Below, in pieces: positions 2,605-25,487 of a stretch of 32,051 bases of DNA. The number at the start of each line of letters is the position of its first letter. The first letter of the stretch is position 1. The stretch is from Thermodesulfovibrionales bacterium (GTDB lineage: Bacteria; Nitrospirota; Thermodesulfovibrionia; Thermodesulfovibrionales; CALJEL01), in assembly GCA_026417875.1 (NCBI GenBank), contig JAOACK010000016.1, positions 1-32,051 of the forward strand. Direction: 5' to 3'. The position numbers and the translations under genes were made by a program. The notes under the pieces were generated by a model. It saw nothing but the letters and a program-made list of their open reading frames with translations. It searched no databases and was not told where the DNA came from.

Positions 2605-3814
2605 TTGTTCCACCAAATCCAAAGGAATTGGATATGGCACAATTAACCTCTCTATGTCTCGCCTTATTGGGTACATAATCAAGGTCACAAACAGGGTCAG
2701 GTTTTTCAAGATTTATTGTTGGAGGGATAAGATTGTTATAAATACTCAGTATTGTTATTACTGCCTCGACTCCACCTGCTGCTCCAAGCAGATGGCCTGT
2801 CATGGATTTTGTTGAACTTACAGCAAGCCTGTAGGCATGCTCTCCAAAGACCTTTTTTATTGCCATGGTTTCGAGCTCATCTCCATATTTTGTTGATGTG
2901 CCATGAGCATTAATATAATCAACTTCTTCAGGCTTTATACATGCATCCTTAAGTGCAGCTTCCATACATCTAGCCGCACCCTCTCCTTCGGGAGCAGGTG
3001 AGGTGATATGGTAGGCGTCACCGCTCATTCCGTAGCCGATGATTTCTGCGTATATCCTTGCCCCTCTTTTTAAGGCATGTTCGAGCTCTTCAAGAATCAC
3101 TATTCCAGCACCCTCTCCCATCACAAAGCCATCCCTGTCAATATCAAAAGGTCTGCTTGCCCTCTCAGGTTCATCATTTCTTGTTGAAAGGGCTTTCATA
3201 GCAGTGAAACCAGCTATACCCATTGGAGTAATTACGGCCTCTGTACCGCCAGCAATCATGGCATCAGCTTCACCACGCTGAATGATCCTGAAGGCATCTC
3301 CTATGGAATGGCTTCCTGTTGCACAGGCTGTGCAAGGAGAAGAATTCGGTCCCTTAGCACCATATCTTATTGATACCTGTCCTGCAGCCAGGTTGATTAT
3401 AATCATTGGAATAAAGAAAGGAGATATCCTTCTGTGCCCCTTCTCAAGGAGGGTTCTGTGATAATGTTCTATCATGGGCAGTCCTCCCATACCAGAACCT
3501 ATTATCACACCAACCCTTTGAGCATTCTCAGGAGTTATTTTAAGGCCTGAGTCCTTCATTGCCATTTCTGCGGCCGCAATAGCAAAGTGTATGAACCTGT
3601 CCATCTTTTTTATCTCTTTCTGTTCAATATAATTAGAGGGATCAAAATTCTTTACCTCAGCAGCAATCTGGACAGGATAGCTGGATGCATCAAAGAGAGT
3701 TATTTTACCAACACCAGATTTTCCCTGAATAAGAGCCTCCCATGTCTCCGAGACTCCTATTCCCAGAGGTGTAACCAGACCCAGACCTGTAACAACTACC
3801 CTTCTTTTTTCCAT
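2567..3814 (-). CDS. fabF: 3-oxoacyl-[acyl-carrier-protein] synthase II
   Basis: This cytoplasmic beta-ketoacyl-ACP synthase condenses malonyl-ACP with a growing acyl-ACP in fatty-acid elongation. At 415 residues it has the family's normal length. The catalytic Cys-His-His triad is visible: C164 in [11 protein letters not shown]304 in [11 protein letters not shown] and H341 in [13 protein letters not shown]; the glycine-rich C-terminus [11 protein letters not shown] is also typical. It starts 7 nt after acpP ends, the carrier protein it works on, and its 3' end overlaps rnc. FabB and FabF share the triad; length and sequence style favour FabF. Confidence 0.95.
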
Positions 3815-17943: not shown

Positions 17944-18695
17944 TGAGAGTTCCACTTATTGCAGCCAACTGGAAGATGAATAAGACAACTCAGGAGACCA
18001 GAGACTTTATAATTCAATTTACTCCAATGGTAGCTGGAATTGAAGGAGTTGAGATAGTTATAGCTCCACCATTTACATCACTTGCTGTAGCAGCAAAATT
18101 TCTGAAAGGCTCGGGTATAAAGCTTGGTGCCCAGAATATCTTTTATGAAAAGTCAGGTGCCTATACAGGAGAGATATCTCCATTGATGATAAAAGATTGT
18201 GGTTGTGAGTATGTAATAATTGGGCATTCTGAAAGGAGACAGTATTTTCAGGAAACAGATGTAATTATAAATAAAAAGCTCAGGGCTGCACAGGAGGCTG
18301 GTCTTTCTGTTATACTATGTATTGGCGAGACAATTACTGAGAGAGAGCAGGGTAAGACTTTTAATGTTATCAAAACTCAGCTCATAGAAGGCCTTAAGGA
18401 TGCAAAACCAGAATCTCTTGTTATTGCCTATGAGCCTGTATGGGCAATCGGAACAGGAAGGACAGCAAGTGTAGAGCAGATAAGAGAGGCCCACGGATTT
18501 ATAAGAACAGTGCTTAGAGATATATTTAAAGAAGAGGCTGAGCATATTAGGATTCAGTATGGCGGTAGCGTGAATCCTGAGAATGCTTTTAAGATATTGA
18601 ATATTGATAATGTTGATGGAGCCCTTGTGGGTGGAGCGAGTCTCAAGCCCGATAGTTTTACAAGTATAATATTAGCAAAAGGAGTAAGGAGATGA
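17943..18695 (+). CDS. tpiA: Triosephosphate isomerase
   Basis: This cytoplasmic enzyme interconverts dihydroxyacetone phosphate and glyceraldehyde 3-phosphate. At 250 residues it has the normal length, with all key residues visible: N9 and K11 (NWKMN), the electrophile H95 (IGHSERR), the base E164 (AYEPVWAIGTG, also the start of loop 6) and the phosphate-binding QYGGSV. The start overlaps the preceding stop by 1 nt (TAATG), and its own stop overlaps secG by 4 nt (ATGA). Confidence 0.97.
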   Translation: MRVPLIAANWKMNKTTQETRDFIIQFTPMVAGIEGVEIVIAPPFTSLAVAAKFLKGSGIKLGAQNIFYEKSGAYTGEISPLMIKDCGCEYVIIGHSERRQYFQETDVIINKKLRAAQEAGLSVILCIGETITEREQGKTFNVIKTQLIEGLKDAKPESLVIAYEPVWAIGTGRTASVEQIREAHGFIRTVLRDIFKEEAEHIRIQYGGSVNPENAFKILNIDNVDGALVGGASLKPDSFTSIILAKGVRR

Positions 18696-19018
18696 TAACA
18701 CTTTTAACAATTATTCACATACTTGCCTGTATTTTTTTAATATTTATAGTGCTTATACAGAGCTCAAAGGGTGCAGAGGTCGGAGCAGCCTTTGGTGGTT
18801 CAAGCCAGACTATCTTTGGGTCAAGAGGAGCTGCAACCTTTCTTAGTAAGGTTACTGCTGTAATTGCAACACTTTTTATGATTACATCCCTTGTGCTATC
18901 AATTGCAGCATCGAAGGGAACGAGTGTTGTTAAAGAGACTACAAAGCCACCGGCCCAGACACTTCCTCAGGAGCCATTGAAGGTCCCTCCCACAGTACCG
19001 CCTCCTGATAAGAAATAG
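18692..19018 (+). CDS. secG: Preprotein translocase subunit SecG
   Basis: This is an accessory subunit of the SecYEG protein-export channel. The 108 residues comprise two membrane helices (about 3-22 and 53-73) linked by the conserved GAEVGAAFGGSSQTIFGSRGAATFL loop, plus a proline-rich tail (VPPTVPPPDKK). The tpiA-secG pairing is common in bacteria and supports the call. The ATG overlaps the tpiA stop, so translation is probably coupled. Confidence 0.95.
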   Translation: MITLLTIIHILACIFLIFIVLIQSSKGAEVGAAFGGSSQTIFGSRGAATFLSKVTAVIATLFMITSLVLSIAASKGTSVVKETTKPPAQTLPQEPLKVPPTVPPPDKK

Positions 19019-21989: not shown

Positions 21990-22493
21990 TCAATGAATAG
22001 TATCTTTCTGAATCCCTTTTTCAATCAGATTAAAATTGCCATCCCTGTTTTCATAGACCTCTATGGATTTTTCATCGGGATCAACAATCCAGTATTCCCT
22101 TACATTATGTTTTGCATAGGTTTTCACTTTGTGTACTTCATAATAGGCAGAGGAAGGCGAGAGTATTTCAATAATAAGATCAGGAGTACCCTCTATCTTT
22201 TTTTCTCCTTTAATATGAAGTCTGTCTTTTGATATAAAGATAATATCTGACTGATAAACCTCTATCTCTTCAAGATAGACATCAAGGGGTGCATGCAAGA
22301 CCTCGCCGATTTTTTGATTTTTTTTTGCGTGTTCATAAATTATATACTCAAGTATTTTTAATATCCTCTGATAATATGGCATAGGTGATGGGCTGATGAC
22401 AAGCTCTCCTTTTATGAGCTGATAGGGTGCTCCTTCAGGAAGTTTTTCATAATCCCTGTAAGTATAAATTCCTTTTTCAGCTGTGAGTGGCAC
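21990..22493 (-). CDS. Uma2-family protein, C-terminally truncated by in-frame stops
   Basis: This Uma2-family (DUF820, restriction-endonuclease-like fold) protein reads 167 residues from a GTG start overlapping thiE by 17 nt. Conserved parts are YQLIKGELVISPSP, the acidic SDIIFISKDR, PDLIIEILSPSSA and VREYWIVDPDEKSIEVYE. It stops at a TGA, but the same frame continues NVIGLEI, a TAA, LEEIF and a TAA at 21948. That matches the family's usual end and the end of the broken copy at 19830-20392 (VIEDILLDLKDVF). The gene has therefore probably lost its last 14 residues. The ancestral stop would lie 10 nt before the next gene. The core may still fold; function unknown. Confidence 0.75.
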   Translation of the reverse strand: MPLTAEKGIYTYRDYEKLPEGAPYQLIKGELVISPSPMPYYQRILKILEYIIYEHAKKNQKIGEVLHAPLDVYLEEIEVYQSDIIFISKDRLHIKGEKKIEGTPDLIIEILSPSSAYYEVHKVKTYAKHNVREYWIVDPDEKSIEVYENRDGNFNLIEKGIQKDTIH

Positions 22494-23121
22494 TTCTGAA
22501 CTCCTCTATTGCTTTTAAAAAGGCCCTTACATTTATTTCTGGATTTTCGTCTATTATACCAGAGGACACAGCTACTGCATCAGCACCATTTTTCATAACA
22601 GAGATTACATTTTCTGCCTTTATACCGCCAATAGCTACTACTGGAATTTTAACATATCTCTTGATCTCTTTTATAGATTCTGGACCCTTAGGAGTTCCAG
22701 CATCTTTAGTCAGAGTGGGAAATATAGGACCATATCCTATATAGCTGGCACCAGCCTCAGTTGCAGCAATGGCTTCGGTGAGACTGTGGGTTGAGATACC
22801 TATTATCCTTCCTGCGAATATCTTCTTTGCTATATAAATGGGTATATCGTCCTGACCGAGATGCACACCATCAGCATTTACAGCAAGAGCAAGATCAATA
22901 AAGTCATTCACAATCAATAGGGCATTGTATCTCCTGGTTAGTTCCCTTATGAGAAGGCAATCTCTATACTGAATCCTCTTTGAGGTCTCCTTACCTCTGT
23001 ACTGAATCCACCTTATCCCTTCCTCAAGAAGTATCTCGACTCTTTTTATTAAATCCTTTAGTACTTCAGAAGAAGGGCATATTACCTGAATTGGTGGTTC
23101 AGGTACAATCAGCTCAGACAG
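22477..23121 (-). CDS. thiE: Thiamine-phosphate synthase-like protein with probable non-canonical start
   Basis: This TIM-barrel enzyme joins thiazole phosphate and HMP pyrophosphate to make thiamine phosphate. Recognisable parts are [50 protein letters not shown] and [12 protein letters not shown]. The first ATG/GTG/TTG in frame is a TTG at 22917, which would drop about 68 N-terminal residues. The frame is open and homologous upstream to about 23134 without any ATG, GTG or TTG. AGGAGG at 23131-23136 lies 9 nt before a CTG at 23121; that start gives 214 residues, the normal ThiE length, and an 8-nt overlap with accC. An ATT start or a recently lost ATG are alternatives. TenI-type ThiE paralogues cannot be excluded. 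Confidence 0.75.
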
Positions 23122-24490
23122 GCTGGGTAACCTCCTTTAAAGTGGTTGAACTGTTCATTTCCTCAAGAAAGGAGGTACTATATCTGCCTTCTAAAAACTG
23201 AGGATGGTTCAGGAGTTTCTTGTGGAGGGGAAGGGTTGTCTTTACTCCCTCTATCATGAATTCATCAATCGCCCTTGCCATCCTCTTTATTGCCTCCTGT
23301 CTGTCCTTACCGTAAACAATGAGCTTGGCAATCATGGAATCATAATAGGGTGGCACTGTGTATCCGGGATATATGGCTGTATCGACCCTTACACCGGGTC
23401 CGCCCGGAAGGGAAAGAAAGGTTATCTTACCAGGAGAAGGGACAAATCTTTCAGGGTCTTCTGCATTTATCCGGCACTCTATAGCCCAGCCATTGAATTT
23501 TATATCAGGCTGTCTATAACCGAGCTCGTAACCTGCAGCAATCTTTATCTGCTCTTTTACAATATCTATTCCTGTTATAAGCTCGGTTATAGGATGCTCA
23601 ACCTGTATCCTTGTGTTTATCTCTATGAAATAGATATTCCCTTCTTCATCCACGATAAACTCAAAGGTTCCGGCATTCCTATATTTTATTGCCCTTGCTG
23701 CCTTTACAGCGAGTTCACCGATTTTCTTTCTCTGTTTTTCTGTGAGAAAAGGTGAAGGTGCTTCCTCAAGGAGTTTCTGGTGTCTTCTCTGAATTGAGCA
23801 TTCCCTCTCTCCAAGATGTACAATATTTCCTTTAGAATCAGCCAGAATCTGCACCTCTATATGCCTTATACTTGATATATATTTTTCAATATAAAGTTCA
23901 CCATTTCCAAAGGCTGCGAAGGCCTCTCTCTGAGCCATGTGAAAAGCCTGTTCGAATTCTGATTCCTCTCTCACGATTCTCATTCCCTTTCCGCCGCCAC
24001 CAGCAGAAGCTTTGAGCATTACAGGAAAGCCAATCTTCTTTACAACCCTTTCTGCCACATCCTCTGAATTAACAGGACCATCACTTCCTGGAACAACAGG
24101 AATGCCTCTTCTCTTAAGAATTGTCCTTGCCTTTGCCTTGTCTCCTCCAATCTTTATATTTTCCGGTGTAGGTCCTATAAATGTTATTCCAGAGGTGATA
24201 CAGGCTTCAGCAAAATGGGGATTTTCAGAAAGGAATCCATAGCCGGGATGGATTGCTTCAGCATCGGTAATCTCCGCTGCACTCAGGATTGCAGGGATGT
24301 TGAGATAACTCTGCTGTGGGTTTGCAGGTCCTATGCATACTGCCTCATCAGCAAGTTTTACATGGAGAGACTCCCTGTCCGCCTCTGAATAGACAGCTAC
24401 AGTTCTGATTCCAAGTTCCTTGCATGCCCTGATGATTCTAAGGGCAATCTCCCCTCTATTTGCTATGAGAATCTTTTTAAATAATTTCAT
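23114..24490 (-). CDS. accC: Acetyl-CoA carboxylase, biotin carboxylase subunit
   Basis: This ATP-grasp enzyme carboxylates biotin on AccB, the first half-reaction of acetyl-CoA carboxylase. The 458 residues are slightly longer than the usual 445-450. It shows [23 protein letters not shown] at the N-terminus, the ATP loop [15 protein letters not shown], and the catalytic [24 protein letters not shown]. The ATG overlaps the accB stop by 4 nt. accA and accD are not in this window. Its C-terminal codons contain the Shine-Dalgarno for thiE. Confidence 0.96.
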
Positions 24491-24927
24491 ACAGGCTCTA
24501 TCAGAAAGAGGGGTTCTCCATACTCAACAGGCTGACCGTTTTCAACAAGTATTCTCATTACCACACCATCTACCTCGCTCTCAATCTCATTCATTAATTT
24601 CATGGCTTCTATTATACACAGAATTTGCCCTTTCTTGACCCTTGTTCCTACCTCAACAAAAGGAGGTGCATCTGGTGATGGGGAACGATAAAAAGTTCCA
24701 ACTATTGGTGAAGTTACTGTTATTAGCCTGCGGGTTTCTTCTTCAGCAGCTACAGGTAAAGGCTGTTTCTCTATCTCCACAGGCTTCTGAGCATGCTGAA
24801 TCTCAAAAGGTCCTATAAATCTTTCACGCCTTACCTTTACTTTTATTCCCTCTTTTTCAATCACAAGTTCAGTAATATCTGTTTCTTTTAGTAAATTTAA
24901 TATGTCCTTTAATTCTTCAAGATTCAT
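24487..24927 (-). CDS. accB: Acetyl-CoA carboxylase, biotin carboxyl carrier protein
   Basis: This is the biotin-bearing subunit of acetyl-CoA carboxylase, 146 residues. The C-terminal biotinyl domain has the lysine in [11 protein letters not shown] and the preceding [23 protein letters not shown] hairpin; a short linker with PLPVAAEEE precedes it. It starts 1 nt inside the efp stop and ends in a 4-nt overlap with accC, its direct partner. Confidence 0.95.
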
Positions 24928-25487
24928 TATTTTACCCTCTCTACATATTCTCCGGTTCTAGTATCAACCTTTATTATATCTCCTTCAACAATGTGGAAAG
25001 GCACCTTTATAATTGCACCGGTTTCAAGTCTTGCCGGTTTTGAGCCGGCTGATGCGGTGTCTCCTTTGAATGGAGGTTCTGTTTCAATAACCTTGAGCTC
25101 TACAAACATAGGAGGTTCTACTGTCAGGGGTTGCTCTCTATAGTAAAGCACACGGACATTCATATTTTCCTTTATAAACTTCCTTGCCTCGCCAAGAGCC
25201 TCTTCACTTATTGTTACCTGCTCATAGGTCTCTGTATCCATGAAGACATATTCATTTCCTTGGCTGTAAAGATACTGCATCTCCTTTTCTTCAAGCTTAG
25301 GCAGCGGTATTTTGTCACCCGCATTAAATGTCTCATCAATAACCCTGCCGGTTTTAAGGGACTTTATCTTTACCCTCATTATAGGTGCACGCTGCTGCAT
25401 CTTTACATGCTGAGATTCGATAACCTCATAGGGTTCTCCCTTGAACTCAATCTTCATCCCTCTTCTTAATTCACTTGCAGCAATCAC
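24927..25487 (-). CDS. efp: Elongation factor P with atypical tip loop
   Basis: This tRNA-shaped factor rescues ribosomes stalled on polyproline. It has 186 residues with the normal three-domain layout (KOW-like N-domain, OB domain, C-terminal domain ending [18 protein letters not shown]). The start is GTG, 5 nt after AAAGGAGG. The tip loop, usually KPGKGQA with a modified lysine (K34 in E. coli), here reads KMQQRAP at 29-35. The position of the modified lysine holds Q32, next to R33. No epmA, epmB or earP gene is in the window. Assignment to EF-P rather than EfpL/YeiP is based on overall sequence and the efp-accB-accC context. Confidence 0.9.

Follow-up and report, generated by a model that had tools for sequence, protein, structure and literature searches.

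An elongation factor P with a conserved Gln-Gln-Arg tip that may act unmodified and appears to be exchanged with its N-terminal half

Elongation factor P (EF-P) is nearly universal, and a modified lysine or arginine is usually linked to its activity. The EF-P of a Thermodesulfovibrionales bacterium has neither residue at that position, which raises the question of how the protein works. Its gene lies in a window of 32,051 nucleotides, by which we mean the whole stretch of DNA that was analysed, on the minus strand at 24927–25487; the efp frame starts with GTG and encodes 186 amino acids. The tip loop between strands beta3 and beta4, K29-M30-Q31-Q32-R33-A34-P35, is encoded on the same strand at 25383–25403 by AAG ATG CAG CAG CGT GCA CCT, which agrees with a first-pass annotation that had read KMQQRAP within 25360–25412.

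The window protein scores 246 bits against the TIGR00038 EF-P equivalog model (cut-off, 185.8), and its KOW-like, OB and C-terminal domains all score above the Pfam cut-offs (EFP_N, PF08207; EFP, PF01132; Elong-fact-P_C, PF09285). When an AlphaFold model of the protein (mean pLDDT, 90.5) was used for a structure search, the best 14 rows, with Z from 22.1 to 15.3, were all entries for EF-P or EfpL, and the model matched the Corynebacterium EF-P crystal structure 6s8z with a Z of 21.8 and 1.8 Å over 184 residues. An identity as EfpL was ruled out by scores of 144.5 bits against 216 for NF003392 and 125.4 against 264.05 for TIGR02178, and a second efp copy was ruled out because the window efp is the sole PF08207 match in its genome (2.0 Mb, 95.43% complete). 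We conclude that the window protein is a true EF-P and not EfpL; the contrary case raised at first pass, in which a normal efp lies elsewhere and the window copy is EfpL-like, failed on both counts.

A profile of 23 Q-type proteins aligned to two solved EF-P sequences without a gap at the tip, which places the Q32 codon (25392–25394, minus strand) at the site that is modified in other EF-Ps (K34 in E. coli) and the R33 codon (25389–25391, minus strand) one residue past it, where the KMGRG type has Gly. R33 also belongs to MQQR, the motif used to pick the type. In the AlphaFold model, Q32 is central in loop 29–35 because the flanking strands, 18–28 and 36–43, end and restart at residues 28 and 36. 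The predicted structure suggests that the window EF-P has the usual seven-residue loop with Q32 at its centre and R33 one further on, as had been proposed at first pass; the structural alternative considered there, with R33 at the tip, finds no counterpart in the model. The lysine-type signature of P32 and K34 is absent, as the window protein has M30 and Q32 there, and so are the arginine-type signature (R at the tip, here Q32) and the EfpL-type loop (more than seven residues with an R tip, here seven with Gln at the centre).

We examined how this tip is distributed in the order, where 164 of 176 genomes have an efp match and 136 loci were read from 135 genomes (117 loci and 19 more, with G322 read twice). 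The tip is KMQQR[AS]P in 27 of these 136 loci and has Arg in 109 (L051 and L083 are examples), which read KMGRG or KIGRG save for one TMGRG and one KMGRSG, both among the 19 loci; no tip intermediate between the Q and R types occurs in the 136. The Q types comprise both genomes of the window's own family, all 16 genomes with a match in family f5 and nine of family f3. The closest relatives in the order carry KMGRG with Arg at the tip. In the set of 43 distinct Q-type genes, CAG and CAA share the two Gln positions by 26 to 17 and 25 to 18, and six codons are used for the Arg and four for the Pro. Both K29 and P35 occur without exception in the 42 distinct Q-type proteins, against a mean column conservation of 0.74; K and P belonged to the pattern of a contig scan, and loci from protein-similarity searches were picked on MQQR alone. 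MQQR itself served as the selection criterion for the type. A frameshift or sequencing error was ruled out by the number of Q loci in the order, the lack of intermediates and the frequent silent codon changes. Taken together, the sequences indicate that KMQQRxP is a conserved tip type and more than chance or error. A link to heat-loving life through 16S GC content was dropped, as a 16S match was obtained in 6 of 66 genomes and the groundwater locus L204 is Q-tipped.

Elsewhere in the phylum, 30 of 30 loci read outside the order, which were the best Pfam scorers, have KPGKG, and a locus from the same class but another order (L155) has KMGRG. Scanning named genome contigs for the pattern returned 39 stretches, of which 13 do not encode an EF-P with a KMQQR tip and 26 do; the latter belong mainly to Thermodesulfovibrio and other Nitrospirota but also to two Omnitrophota and two UBP3-group genomes (L189 and L190 are pieces of one genome, and L180 belongs with the UBP3 group). 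In Omnitrophota, where 270 of 285 genomes searched have a match, seven of the best 30 matches are Q type, of which six read KMQQRQP, and in the UBP3 group, where 36 of 44 genomes have an efp match, the 30 loci read include 2 Q types; these shares are not prevalences, as the loci read were the best Pfam scorers or the best matches to a Q-type query. The tip KMQQR[ASQ]P is common to three phylum-level groups: Nitrospirota, Omnitrophota and UBP3. Each of five Q-type genomes checked by family search (those of L190, L194, L178, L180 and L204) has one efp; in G371, the second efp match is a piece at a contig end with the same sequence as the first.

The UBP3 group also holds other unusual tips. A further tip type, TPGN[WL]R, places Asn at the modified position, followed by Trp or Leu and then by Arg, and occurs in 11 of the 30 loci read (L260, L262, L265, L267–L269, L271, L272, L274, L281 and L283); the tip of L282 is VRETRRG.

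Trees address how the Q tip arose. From 257 loci with an EF-P match, 255 of at least 165 amino acids gave 224 distinct sequences, which were thinned to 111 rows after removal of the EfpL-like L222; all trees were quick ones with SH-aLRT support. In the whole-protein tree without tip columns, Q requires four changes, a number forced by the starred branches, and forcing all 36 Q rows into one clade is worse by 105 log units (p = 1.15e-7). This phylogeny with the tip residue mapped had been proposed as a check at first pass, and it rejects a single Q clade. The Nitrospirota Q types are nested among R-type EF-Ps.

The two halves of the protein were also analysed separately. For Nitrospirota (68 rows, with L153 left out and four R rows added by hand), the N-terminal half is compatible with one Q origin (p = 0.79), and the C-terminal half gives p = 0.12 for Q as one clade, which is formally still compatible. 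Across phyla, an N-half tree of 73 rows, obtained after removal of L253, L216, L213 and L153 and thinning, is compatible with one clade for all 19 Q rows (p = 0.096) and for the 18 Q rows of Nitrospirota and Omnitrophota (p = 0.31). Mean N-half identity between Q types of different phyla is slightly raised or not raised at all. Whole proteins without the tip thus reject a single, vertically inherited origin of all Q types, and the N-terminal half alone does not, which argues that the tip tracks that half more closely than it tracks the gene as a whole. Independent convergence and cassette transfer between phyla therefore both fit the trees.

A closer view of this linkage comes from genus g3, in which G014 and G114 have the Q type and G067 and G090 the R type. 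In a LysRS tree of 57 of the 176 genomes, in which the row for G303 is a wrong frame, G114 and G067 are sisters with a support of 98. Gene order around efp is kept in both, and their proteins are 93.8% identical for the upstream neighbour, 94.6% for accB and 97.2% for accC but 80.1% for EF-P. Per 100 bases, their DNA identity is 0.89–1.00 outside efp and drops to 0.58 inside. The best-fitting divergent segment spans codons 2.7 to 95.3. It holds 99 differences in 279 positions, against 186 in 3767 outside, a contrast (~35% versus 5%) with a nominal Fisher value of 5e-49 for a segment that was chosen to maximise it. Identities over codons 1–80 and 90–186 are 63% and 93% for G114 with G067, 82% and 85% for G114 with G014, and 92% and 84% for G067 with G090. 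Grouping of G114 with G067 is rejected in the N-half tree (p = 0.0019), which is compatible with all four g3 sequences as one clade (p = 0.18), and the two fall together in the C-half tree with a support of 77, which is not high. Taken together, these comparisons suggest that, in this one pair of sister species, the tip type was swapped when the N-terminal half of efp was exchanged. The matching half of the window gene, codons 1–95, lies at 25203–25487 on the minus strand, with breakpoints inferred in the relatives rather than in the window.

The R-type N-terminal halves of G067, G090 and G116 resemble one another unusually closely, which leaves room for transfer of an R-type half into a Q background as well as for the reverse. 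A chimera in the draft G114 or G067 assemblies is unlikely, given that the flanks on both sides agree with the sister species and that G014, assembled as a single contig, also has a Q-type half. The efp of L204, a groundwater Nitrospirae (3058–3615), may be a second mosaic, as its N-terminal half is ~74% and its C-terminal half ~54% identical to proteins of family f5, and the values against R types are 63% and 65%; the N-terminal half resembles Thermodesulfovibrio Q types and the C-terminal half does not.

Because G114 and G067 differ sharply at codons ~3–95, any partner enzyme specific to one tip type would need to have changed too, and the pair, whose efp loci differ chiefly in the N-terminal half of the gene, offers a natural experiment on the need for such a partner. 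In the window, efp is followed directly, with a one-base overlap, by accB (24487–24927, minus strand; PF00364) and then by accC, which encodes biotin carboxylase (23114–24490, minus strand; Biotin_carb_N and Biotin_carb_C). Of the 21 neighbourhoods that were drawn, 19 have accB next after efp, and the set shows no gene that is common to Q-type loci and missing from R-type loci. A putative endonuclease gene of the Uma2 family lies farther off, at 21990–22493 on the minus strand, between thiE and a gene for a periplasmic binding protein.

A genome search for epmA, earP and ymfI had been suggested at first pass, and it returned none above cut-off in the window genome or in the order. EarP was found in 0 of the 176 genomes and in no control genome, and the same search gave one match (E = 6.3e-101) among 36 genomes from the class to which a gammaproteobacterial MAG belongs. 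Above the cut-off, EpmA was found in 0 of 176 genomes of the order and 2 of 14 controls, and YmfI in 0 of 176 and 1 of 14. Weaker EpmA matches occur in 174 of 176 genomes (top score, 269 bits against a cut-off of 286.9), and the 57 that were fetched are frames of LysRS length except for the wrong frame in G303; G297 has an EpmA-like match of 376 amino acids and an R-type efp. Weaker reductase matches to the YmfI model occur in 176 of 176 genomes and in controls. Because EarP was found in none of these genomes, we consider the Arg tips of the order to be either unmodified or otherwise modified.

Deoxyhypusine synthase (DHS) was also considered. In 42 of 176 genomes a match passes the Pfam cut-off, and in 18 it exceeds 235 bits along the profile; these full-length homologues are scattered in the order (G357, G367, G370, G164 and 14 others). 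Full-length DHS occurs in 0 of the 27 Q-type genomes of the order, and the 18 genomes that have it comprise 16 with R tips, one with a short efp match only and one with no efp match. The window genome has a PF01916 match of 27.8 against a cut-off of 27, which covers 72 positions. An identity as DHS was ruled out for this match, which scores 23.1 against 304.25 on the DHS equivalog; it is a short DHS-like stretch in a GSU2086-family protein (439.5 bits against 250) encoded on the minus strand at 1–1002 of L364 (contig C13 of the window genome). Weak DHS matches are found in frames of 315–370 amino acids in many genomes of the order, and similar short matches in other genomes, both Q and R, are probably of the same GSU2086 kind.

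We therefore return to how an EF-P with this tip could work. With a confidence that is no more than even, we propose that the window efp encodes the genome's working EF-P with a distinct KMQQRxP tip, most likely an unmodified composite loop that was moved by N-half recombination. In this mechanism, the loop would reach the CCA end of the P-site tRNA without modification: R33, one past the usual site, would supply positive charge, Q31 and Q32 would make polar contacts, and P35, in place of a small residue, would stiffen the loop. Because the loop would work as a unit, its changes would travel with domain I and not by single substitutions, and the protein would be active on proline stalls. The unmodified composite loop is favoured because EfpL and stiffened loops work without modification and because the swap appears to have occurred in place; loop stiffness is named as a strategy for unmodified function in one study (PMC11611912). 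A more specific claim, which we offer tentatively, is that a self-sufficient Gln-Gln-Arg triad held by proline relieves stalls without a modified lysine or arginine, having arisen independently or spread as a domain I cassette, and that its exchange by gene conversion would switch the chemistry in one step. The first-pass annotation had listed an unmodified loop, use of R33 by a shifted register and a novel modification without choosing among them; the evidence leans, though not decisively, toward the first.

The main consideration against an unmodified loop is that Gln at the tip fails in the E. coli loop, in which K34A, K34M, K34N and K34Q are inactive and K34R keeps ~20% (PMC6544042). KMQQRxP could instead be the recognition site of an enzyme outside the known set that targets Q32 or R33, perhaps by methylation or glycosylation, in Q-type and perhaps R-type genomes. 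One exact loop recurring in three phylum-level groups, with K29-M-Q-Q-R-x-P35 nearly fixed, could equally mean recognition by an enzyme. Such an enzyme is compatible with the absence of the known ones: it could serve both tip types, given the 109 Arg-tip loci without EarP, and the window genome does encode the GSU2086-family DHS-related protein, with weak DHS matches of similar size in many other genomes. However, no Q-linked gene appears in the 21 efp neighbourhoods, a comparison confined to those neighbourhoods, and close sister species differ in tip type by an exchange of codons ~3–95 at the locus. We consider this explanation rather unlikely.

It is more doubtful that the loop is twisted by one residue, such that R33 becomes the physical tip in the role of R34 and the glutamines serve as spacers. 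The Nitrospirota Q types do lie among R-type EF-Ps with Arg one position away, and EfpL works with an unmodified Arg (PMC11611912), but the predicted loop, in a model that is not ribosome-bound, keeps seven residues with Q32 central, and a shift would leave the constant glutamines unexplained. A degenerate tip, with which EF-P no longer makes its catalytic contact and leaves proline stalls to factors such as the ABCF and YebC-type proteins described in other bacteria (PMC11611912), would fit Gln in place of a charged tip but is very improbable, as the loop is unchanged amid silent codon turnover in 43 distinct genes from three phylum-level groups and the window genome encodes PPP in SecG.

This SecG (18692–19018, plus strand; PF03840, 83 bits) ends in KVPPTVPPPDKK, with PPT and PPP near its C-terminus, which bears out the first-pass remark on such runs in the window and makes secG a possible EF-P client. 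On the unmodified composite loop that we prefer, the unusual tip suggests a different, putative way of helping ribosomes through proline runs. More broadly, a conserved class of Gln tips, in genomes where no other EF-P was detected, either challenges the rule that a charged, often modified tip is needed or points to an undiscovered modification.

Among the known systems, an actinobacterial EF-P reportedly works unmodified by means of a proline-stiffened loop that keeps lysine at the tip (Pinheiro et al. 2020). The likeness to the window EF-P is the idea of an unmodified loop stiffened by proline; the window protein has Q at the tip and no PGKG. Glutamine tips as such are in published censuses: Volkwein et al. 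(2019), who combined a census with E. coli and P. putida mutants, surveyed 1166 EF-Ps and found Q at the tip in 0.6%, never with P32, and the accessible part of their article holds no KMQQR loop, recurrence across phyla or domain exchange (PMC6544042). Some EF-Ps without K34 had also been noted in another report (PMC2821294). In the literature searched, no description of the KMQQR motif, its recurrence or its swapping was found, and the motif string matched only epitope-prediction work; a search for EF-P together with Thermodesulfovibrio found nothing. The lysine-type EF-P, which is served by EpmA or YmfI, is like the window protein in its fold, its seven-residue loop and its K at the first loop position; the window protein differs in having neither P32 nor K34, and EpmA and YmfI are not above cut-off in the order. 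The arginine-type EF-P with EarP, known from Pseudomonas and Neisseria, shares family and fold with the window protein and likewise has no proline at position 32; unlike it, the window protein has Gln at the tip with Arg one later, in an order where EarP was not found in 176 genomes. EfpL (YeiP) offers the precedent of a tip that works unmodified (PMC11611912), whereas the window EF-P has a shorter loop and scores far under the EfpL models.
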